DNA of 28,087 nucleotides from a virus, in IMG/VR virus record IMGVR_UViG_3300024520_000399, positions 1 through 28,087 of that record; one strand, written 5' to 3'. A model generated the notes under the pieces. It was not told the origin of the DNA, did not search any database, and saw only the letters and a list, made by a program, of their open reading frames with translations. Both the position numbers and the translations under genes were made by a program. Positions 26,802 through 28,087 of this stretch are shown piece by piece. Numbering within the stretch: position 1 is the stretch's first letter; the number at the start of each line of letters is the position of its first letter.

Positions 26802-27170
26802 ATGAACATAGATGAACTGACATTAGGTCAGATTAAAGAAATCAAAAGTATGTACGGAAATAGTCAAAGCTCTAACCACCCAATGCTTGGGAGAAGATGT
26901 TTAATTAGGACTTATTCTGCCGGTGTCCATATTGGAGATGTGGCATGGATAAACCCTGAAAATTCAATGGAATGTAAATTAGACAATGCTCTAAGACTCT
27001 GGAAGTGGTCAGAAGGTGGGCTCTCATTAAGCAAGGTTGCAAAATACGGGATAGAGGGCGGTCGATTGAATGAAACCGGTGAAGTGGGGCTTACAAATGT
27101 AATTGAATACATACCCACAACGTCTGAAGCGGAGGAAACATATGTTAAATTTATCGAAGATAAAAAATAG
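26802..27170 (+). CDS. DUF6948-like conserved phage protein
   Basis: 122 residues. MNIDELTLGQIKEIKSMYGN, then SNHPMLGRRCLIRTYSAGVH, the DVAWI strand and NVIEYIP are the pattern of a common phage family (MNIDELTIGQ..., HP...G..YFIRTVT, ...AWIADTGR). The late part contains an insertion compared with the family. AAAGG lies upstream of the ATG. The role of the family is not known. Confidence 0.65.
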   Translation: MNIDELTLGQIKEIKSMYGNSQSSNHPMLGRRCLIRTYSAGVHIGDVAWINPENSMECKLDNALRLWKWSEGGLSLSKVAKYGIEGGRLNETGEVGLTNVIEYIPTTSEAEETYVKFIEDKK

Positions 27171-27459
27171 GCATCATGGCGATGGTTCTGGTGATGGTTC
27201 TGGTTCTGGTTCTGGCGATGGTTCTGGCGATGGTTCTGGTTCTGGTTATGGTTATGGTTCTGGTTCTGGTTCTGGCGATGGTTATGGTGATGGTTCTGGT
27301 TCTGGTTATGGTTATGGTGATGGTTCTGGTTATGGTGATGGTTCTGGTTATGGTTCTGGTTCTGGTTCTGGTTCTGGTTATGGTTCTGGTGATGGTTATG
27401 GTGATGGTTCTGGTTCTAGTTCTGGTTATGGTTCTGGCTGTGGCGATGGCTCTGGCTGA
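27142..27459 (+). CDS. (Gly-X)n repeat protein, X = Ser, Asp or Tyr
   Basis: 105 residues from the ATG at 27142, which has GGAGG at good spacing (GGAGGAAACATATG); an in-frame upstream ATG has no ribosome site. After a 12-residue basic start (MLNLSKIKNRHH) the remaining residues are strictly Gly-X alternation with X mostly Ser, Asp or Tyr, one exceptional Ser for Gly near the end, and a Cys near the C-terminus. No signal peptide or membrane span. It would be flexible, acidic and perhaps phase-separating or adhesive. It overlaps the DUF6948-like gene by 29 bases. Confidence 0.7.
   Translation: MLNLSKIKNRHHGDGSGDGSGSGSGDGSGDGSGSGYGYGSGSGSGDGYGDGSGSGYGYGDGSGYGDGSGYGSGSGSGSGYGSGDGYGDGSGSSSGYGSGCGDGSG
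27177..27459 (+). repeat. Hexamer-type DNA repeat (GGT TCT / GAT / TAT) in the Gly-X gene
   Basis: The DNA is a run of codon pairs GGT/GGC plus TCT, GAT or TAT over about 280 bases. This gives a degenerate six-base periodic tract, likely unstable by slippage in multiples of six, so length changes would keep the frame. Confidence 0.8.
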
Positions 27460-27937: not shown

Positions 27938-27990
27938 GGACGGGTGGCGGAATAGGTAGACGCTAATCCTTAGGCTGTGACCGTAATGGG
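27938..27990 (+). tRNA. tRNA-Leu-like 5' half with a broken anticodon arm
   Basis: GGACGGG (acceptor-like), TG, GCG GAATAGGTAGA CGC (D-arm with a perfect three-base stem) at 27938-27963 is the canonical start of a bacterial tRNA-Leu. The anticodon arm expected next, of the type CTAAGGAxTTAAAATCCTTAG, is reduced to CTAATCCTTAG. Nothing that pairs as an anticodon stem and no T-arm (GGTTCAA) is seen before the window ends. So it is a remnant, a processed or interrupted tRNA, or another tRNA-like RNA. Confidence 0.35.
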
Positions 27991-28087
27991 CAGGCACACG
28001 ACAGCTATGCAGGGTGACTATACGAGTACTTTCTCCATGATGTTTATGGTGGCTGGTGACATCAGCCTTAATTGATAGTCGTCTCGG

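Follow-up and report, generated by a model that had tools for sequence, protein, structure and literature searches.

A phage gene pair comprising DUF6948, with a predicted Sm-like fold, and an overlapping (Gly-Ser/Asp/Tyr) polymer

Towards one end of the window (the whole 28,087-nt stretch analysed here, from IMG/VR virus record IMGVR_UViG_3300024520_000399) lies an open reading frame whose product is almost entirely glycine alternating with serine, aspartate or tyrosine, which raises the question of whether so monotonous a sequence is a gene and, if it is, what a phage might use it for. An earlier note on this DNA had described a near-pure alternation built on a hexamer DNA repeat and preceded by a good ribosome site, and both observations are confirmed. 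The 105-aa product consists of a 12-aa leader, MLNLSKIKNRHH, followed by 93 residues in strict (Gly-X) alternation, in which the Gly positions hold 46 Gly and one Ser and the X positions 24 Ser, 11 Asp, 10 Tyr and one Cys. Tandem Repeats Finder reported the array with a period of 6, 42.5 copies and a score of 286, far above every other array in the window. The start codon is preceded by a GGAGG ribosome site and sits within the preceding gene (Table 1).

Table 1 Features of the tract locus in the window
Feature	Position	Strand	Basis
Partner gene DUF6948, encoding 122 aa with a predicted Sm/LSm-like fold	26802..27170	+	PF22253 match, AlphaFold2 model, PDB fold matches
GGAGG ribosome-binding site of the tract gene, within the DUF6948 gene	27131..27135	+	Sequence; 6 nt before the ATG
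Gene for the 105-aa (Gly-Ser/Asp/Tyr) tract protein, read in frame +1 with respect to DUF6948; ATG at 27142, TGA stop at 27457-27459	27142..27459	+	Arrangement shared with L121, L122 and L123
Overlap of the DUF6948 and tract genes, 29 nt	27142..27170	+	Comparable overlap sizes across the family
Leader of the tract protein	27142..27177	+	(R/S)HHG part lies 3' of the DUF6948 stop; kept in L121, L122 and L123
Hexamer array GGY-[TCT/GAT/TAT], 46.5 dipeptide units	27178..27456	+	Sequence, Tandem Repeats Finder

Near the contig end, positions 27940-28087 of the window resemble the 5' half of a tRNA-Leu (GGGTGGCGGAATAGGTAGACGCTAATCCTTAGGCTG), a sequence for which neither ARAGORN nor Rfam made a call.

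Linkage of the tract to DUF6948

The earlier note missed the near-obligate partnership of the tract with the preceding gene, the overlap between the two genes and the predicted Sm-like fold. The product of the preceding gene belongs to the Pfam family DUF6948 (PF22253, E = 5e-17, 62.2 bits, cut-off 27). The same family matched above its cut-off in 8 of 9 tested relatives, spanning very distant branches, and in 30 of the 30 members of our alignment A2.

We measured the linkage in two directions, using counts that are non-independent samples because the phages are related. A search of viral contigs with the DNA pattern (GGNKMY)10, which admits Ser, Asp, Tyr and Ala and is blind to neighbouring genes, returned at least 120 stretches. 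Ordinary microsatellites, in the form of pure GAGAGA or GSGSGS runs, were left out of the count; 79 of the matches listed were mixed Ser/Asp/Tyr tracts for which 300 nt or more of upstream sequence was available, and in 73 of these a DUF6948-like gene immediately precedes the tract, on the same strand. A protein search for DUF6948 in viral contigs and in bacterial and archaeal genome contigs, queried with the closer alignment subset A3 (every row of which comes from a tract-linked locus), yielded 137 loci, 120 of them with a strong (Gly-Ser/Asp/Tyr) array behind DUF6948. The other 17 comprise 5 loci at a contig border, about 7 with short or degenerate Gly-rich tracts and about 5 without any. 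Across 1.06 Mb around DUF6948 genes, 126 long Ser/Asp/Tyr hexamer runs lie directly behind DUF6948 compared with 3 elsewhere, so the position of the tract is not due to chance. GT/GP matches among the DUF6948 loci were rejected as a shifted frame of GGG-TAC/TCC/GAC arrays.

The occurrence of the pair across very diverse phages is well supported. Both genes are found in isolated phages (Dickeya phage Setonix, seven phages of Pectobacterium, Vibrio phage IKEMa6-1, Iodobacter phage PhiPLPE, CV-1-33 of Chlorobiaceae and two genomes of Manatee Spring phages), and the earlier view of such a protein as unusual in an early phage operon gives way to that of a common one. The order is reversed in ctRVW222, where the tract lies upstream of DUF6948, and locus L021 encodes an in-frame DUF6948-tract fusion with the tract at the C-terminus. 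Isolate phages and contigs binned with a wide range of bacterial phyla have kept a near-perfect dipeptide polymer, nearly always beside one small partner, which strongly suggests a conserved phage function missed by annotation. DUF6948 is rare in cellular genomes: it was present in 1 of 398 Pseudomonadota genomes, namely the seed genome, and absent from all 14 well-known control genomes. Neisseria genomes (loci L269, L273 and L283, in records named N. sicca and N. gonorrhoeae) carry the pair, with Asn-rich tracts in L269 and L273; DUF6948 matched in two N. gonorrhoeae records, and in all at seven places over three plasmid-collection records. Behind a DUF6948 relative in L124 (5250-5580) lies another hexamer repeat, readable as an alternation of Ser with Arg, Trp, Met, Cys or Gly.

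Annotated or recognised neighbours of the pair are often early replication or recombination genes (ERF, SSB, RecE/Bet, RusA, YqaJ, RecT, Gp157); ERF, RecT, YqaJ, SSB or Gp157 lies within about 5 kb in 27 of 63 loci with full flanks, a count that comes without a background rate and is suggestive only. In Pectobacterium phages a tail fibre gene adjoins the pair on the opposite strand.

Neither the tract partner nor the Sm-like fold of DUF6948 is recorded in the sources searched. We found no description of the pair in a literature search that had most subscription papers outside its reach, so an earlier description is possible; the searched papers make no mention of DUF6948, its Pfam entry names no function, and no phage paper was found to carry the peptide motifs of the tract. 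In PHROGs, neither the tract nor the DUF6948 protein of the window has a family. One PHROGs entry, phrog_18306, seems to include a tract followed by DUF6948, although low complexity may explain the match to the tract. Hits of the tract to Pfam TrAA12 were of low complexity, nearly all below the cut-off, and were discarded.

Reading frame, composition and length of the tract

The tract frame is +1 relative to DUF6948 in 20 loci, +2 in 52 and in frame in 1, and its start mostly lies 4-29 nt 5' of the DUF6948 stop, with ribosome sites of its own in many loci. In most of the family, the tract ATG is formed by the last base of one codon and the TGG codon of the C-terminal Trp of DUF6948, so that the base before the terminal TGG reports on the start codon. 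Among 153 distinct DUF6948 genes this base was A in 118 and G in 24, whereas the same residues elsewhere in the same genes predict 29% A and 24% G (binomial P ~ 1e-34 for A); where the preceding residue is Ile, its codon was ATA in 25 of 25 cases. The excess of A reflects selection to keep a start codon for the overlapping gene, and computation on the sequences thereby shows that the tract is translated. The window's own clade uses another start site, at Tyr-Val/Ala (TATGTT/TATGCC), which is kept in 4 of 4 members. A second frame, MALAM, is open in many arrays, starts within the array and has no conserved leader, and we rejected it. Published genomes omit the tract or call the wrong frame (MAMALAM), as in CV-1-33, gene25 (L136), and ctRVW222 (L137).

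The composition of the tract points the same way. Over 120 arrays the tract contains 49% Gly, 19% Ser, 14% Tyr and 11% Asp, and in 88% of units X is Ser, Tyr or Asp, with an array scoring that slightly favours those residues. Ala is nearly absent, although a single base change separates it from either Ser or Asp and the (GGNKMY)10 search admitted it. Within arrays, units mismatch at rates of 0.42 and 0.51 at the residue-determining bases compared with 0.088 at each of the two wobble bases; from phage to phage, the dominant wobble base varies freely. Varying Ser, Asp and Tyr codons alongside near-fixed wobble bases point to selection on the protein, and wobble bases that are uniform within an array and different between phages mean that arrays are homogenised in each phage with the Ser/Tyr/Asp mixture kept. 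Asp-Asp and Ser-Ser neighbours are depleted (z ~ -5) and Tyr-Tyr neighbours occur at chance level; slippage of single units would have the reverse effect on Asp and Ser neighbours. At the level of sequence computation, the composition is thus shown to be held at the protein level, in agreement with the earlier treatment of the tract as coding. The polymer is acidic, with a median net charge of -7.5 compared with about +1 for DUF6948, and is a low-complexity Gly/Ser sequence with regularly dispersed aromatic residues, the pattern of a sticker-spacer polymer. Low-complexity domains of the FUS type carry Tyr stickers within Gly/Ser spacers. Like them, the tract has Tyr (about 14% of residues) set in Gly/Ser; unlike them, it has a strict dipeptide period, Asp in place of Gln and no RNA-binding domain in the same chain.

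The earlier note also proposed, from the window alone, that the tract can change length in six-base steps while keeping its frame and may be hypervariable, a proposal that comparison of related phages upholds. In eight related Pectobacterium and Dickeya phages whose DUF6948 genes are 88-100% identical, the tract frames measure 162, 204, 222, 222, 222, 252, 258 and 270 nt and always differ by multiples of six, and Ymer and Amona have identical DUF6948 genes and tracts 18 nt apart. Computation on these sequences thus shows the tract to be hypervariable in length in six-base steps. The earlier note had named relatives that lack the frame, or keep the repeat only as non-coding DNA, as the outcome that would count against it; related phages keep the frame. 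Two loci, L106 and L112, are identical up to the array and diverged behind it, and among the Pectobacterium phage loci L133 and L277-L282 there are phages whose DUF6948 genes are 91.7% identical and whose sequences behind the array are 100% identical. Such mosaic break-points suggest that the repeat may also act as a crossover point.

Predicted fold of DUF6948 and known systems

The AlphaFold2 model of DUF6948 (pLDDT 89) shows the helix and five-stranded barrel of an Sm fold, as a prediction only. Almost all of its best 50 PDB fold matches by Foldseek were Sm/LSm proteins, and the VIA comparison with Sm/LSm chains gave a best Z of 9.2 with an rmsd of 2.0 over 67 residues. DUF6948 is therefore predicted, on the basis of its model, to adopt an Sm/LSm fold. 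A PDB profile search with DUF6948 matched no Sm chain, and the SM-ATX domain (the SM domain of Ataxin-2) matched L016 at E = 0.0063, below the cut-off, the only one of 30 members to do so at E 0.1. Relatives of DUF6948 in a viral structure library are phage proteins.

Among the closest parallels is the Hfq protein of Acinetobacter baumannii, in which an Sm core is followed by GGFGGQ repeats and an acidic tip and in which repeat number matters for function (PMC11617691). Both systems combine an Sm-type core with a long Gly-rich, aromatic-containing disordered part and acidic residues. They differ in that DUF6948 is not detectably Hfq by sequence, and in that the Gly-rich part is here strictly (Gly-X)n, with Ser, Asp or Tyr as X, and is encoded by a separate overlapping gene in the window and nearly all relatives instead of forming a same-chain tail, the fusion in L021 being the one exception.

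A repeat of the same hexamer class has been published in Iodobacter phage PhiPLPE, where a GC-rich (KMGCCG)35 repeat at 46,046-46,255 was reported as a repeat and possible novel attachment site, not as a gene (PMC3391216). On its coding strand this repeat (L135, EU876853.1) reads (GGC-TCC/TAC/GAC)35 and lies directly behind gp84, which is a DUF6948 gene. Judged by its sequence, it is an unannotated tract gene, an alternative to the published attachment-site reading.

Possible roles of the gene pair

The best-supported reading of these data, though a tentative one, is a two-gene cassette in which a phage Sm-like protein is paired with a separately encoded, disordered sticker-spacer partner. The acidic polymer would be intrinsically disordered and multivalent and would partner the Sm-like protein; Tyr would serve as its sticker, Gly and Ser as flexible spacer and Asp as a source of charge and solubility. 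Acting in trans, it might take the part played in cis by the Gly-rich acidic C-terminal tails of Hfq, tuning the binding and release of nucleic acid, or it might draw the Sm-like protein and its RNA or ssDNA together to form a condensate early in infection, or both; slippage of the hexamer array would set the valency, as tract length, and allow it to change quickly. We infer the function of the pair, including DUF6948-tract binding, nucleic-acid binding by DUF6948 and tuning or condensation by the polymer, from analogy with A. baumannii Hfq and with Tyr sticker/Gly-Ser spacer polymers. The condensate-forming protein suggested by the earlier note is compatible with the data. In favour of the cassette, the L021 fusion links the two parts physically, with the tract placed where some Hfq proteins have a Gly-rich acidic tail. 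Against the cassette stand the sequence of DUF6948, which has no significant match to Sm or Hfq, and its charge, which is not strongly basic.

Other explanations place the function elsewhere. The pair could be an anti-host factor that blocks a host defence or nuclease, its acidic Asp/Tyr polymer acting as a decoy or nucleic-acid mimic and varying in length for escape. Its short, hypervariable and phage-borne nature (DUF6948 being so rare in cellular genomes) and the net negative tract would suit such a role; however, the composition is strictly conserved over very distant phages, unlike that of a typical arms-race protein, charge density is low at about 11% Asp, and the neighbour survey gave replication and recombination genes and not known anti-defence genes, which makes this reading unlikely. 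We consider a structural, adhesive or ion-binding virion protein very unlikely. Gly/Tyr/Ser-rich polymers do exist in silks and cements, but the leaders seen carry no secretion signal, the partner has a predicted Sm-like fold and annotated neighbours include early genes (ERF, RecT, YqaJ, SSB and RusA); the adhesive or ion-binding role proposed in the earlier note found no support.

The hexamer array could also act as DNA, as an attachment site or recombination hot spot in which the open frame is incidental, in line with the suggestion made for the PhiPLPE repeat (PMC3391216) and with the mosaic break-points at the array in L106/L112 and the Pectobacterium phages. Selection on the tract's start codon, a ribosome site of its own at many loci, conservation of residues with wobble bases free between phages and long arrays without frameshifts make this highly improbable, and recombination at the array can be a by-product. 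That the tract is the C-terminal half of DUF6948, reached by programmed frameshifting, is hinted at by the L021 fusion and the overlapping gene ends, yet is barely credible given that the tract lies in both the +1 and the +2 frame in different loci, begins at a start codon of its own, often behind a ribosome site, and precedes DUF6948 in ctRVW222.

Extending the cassette reading, we can imagine a widespread, undescribed phage organiser in which an Sm-like protein and a trans-encoded, length-tunable (Gly-Ser/Tyr/Asp)n scaffold would condense around the RNA or ssDNA of the phage at an early stage of infection and the array would serve as an evolutionary valency dial; we hold this fuller picture to be doubtful. 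If condensates do form with the phage Sm-like protein, the pair would offer a minimal, natural, length-variable system for studies of bacterial phase separation.

Tract variants bear on the cassette as well. A conserved C-terminal domain of 150-170 aa lies behind the tract in L011, L048, L049, L073, L092, L095, L242, L245 and L259 (motif FAHGET...LTGSCxxGR...NLTxNxYGG, with no Pfam name), and further loci carry other C-terminal extensions. The polymer can therefore be the N-terminal arm of other domains, and in the several phages concerned the tract may be a mere spacer. This domain has a confident structure model, for which Foldseek found no convincing PDB fold match, and it also occurs in Riemerella phages CRP5 and CRP6, in genes annotated as 'ribonuclease inhibitor'. 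In L176 (5267-7402), the tract frame continues as one open frame into a ParB-type gene with ParB_N and HTH domains.
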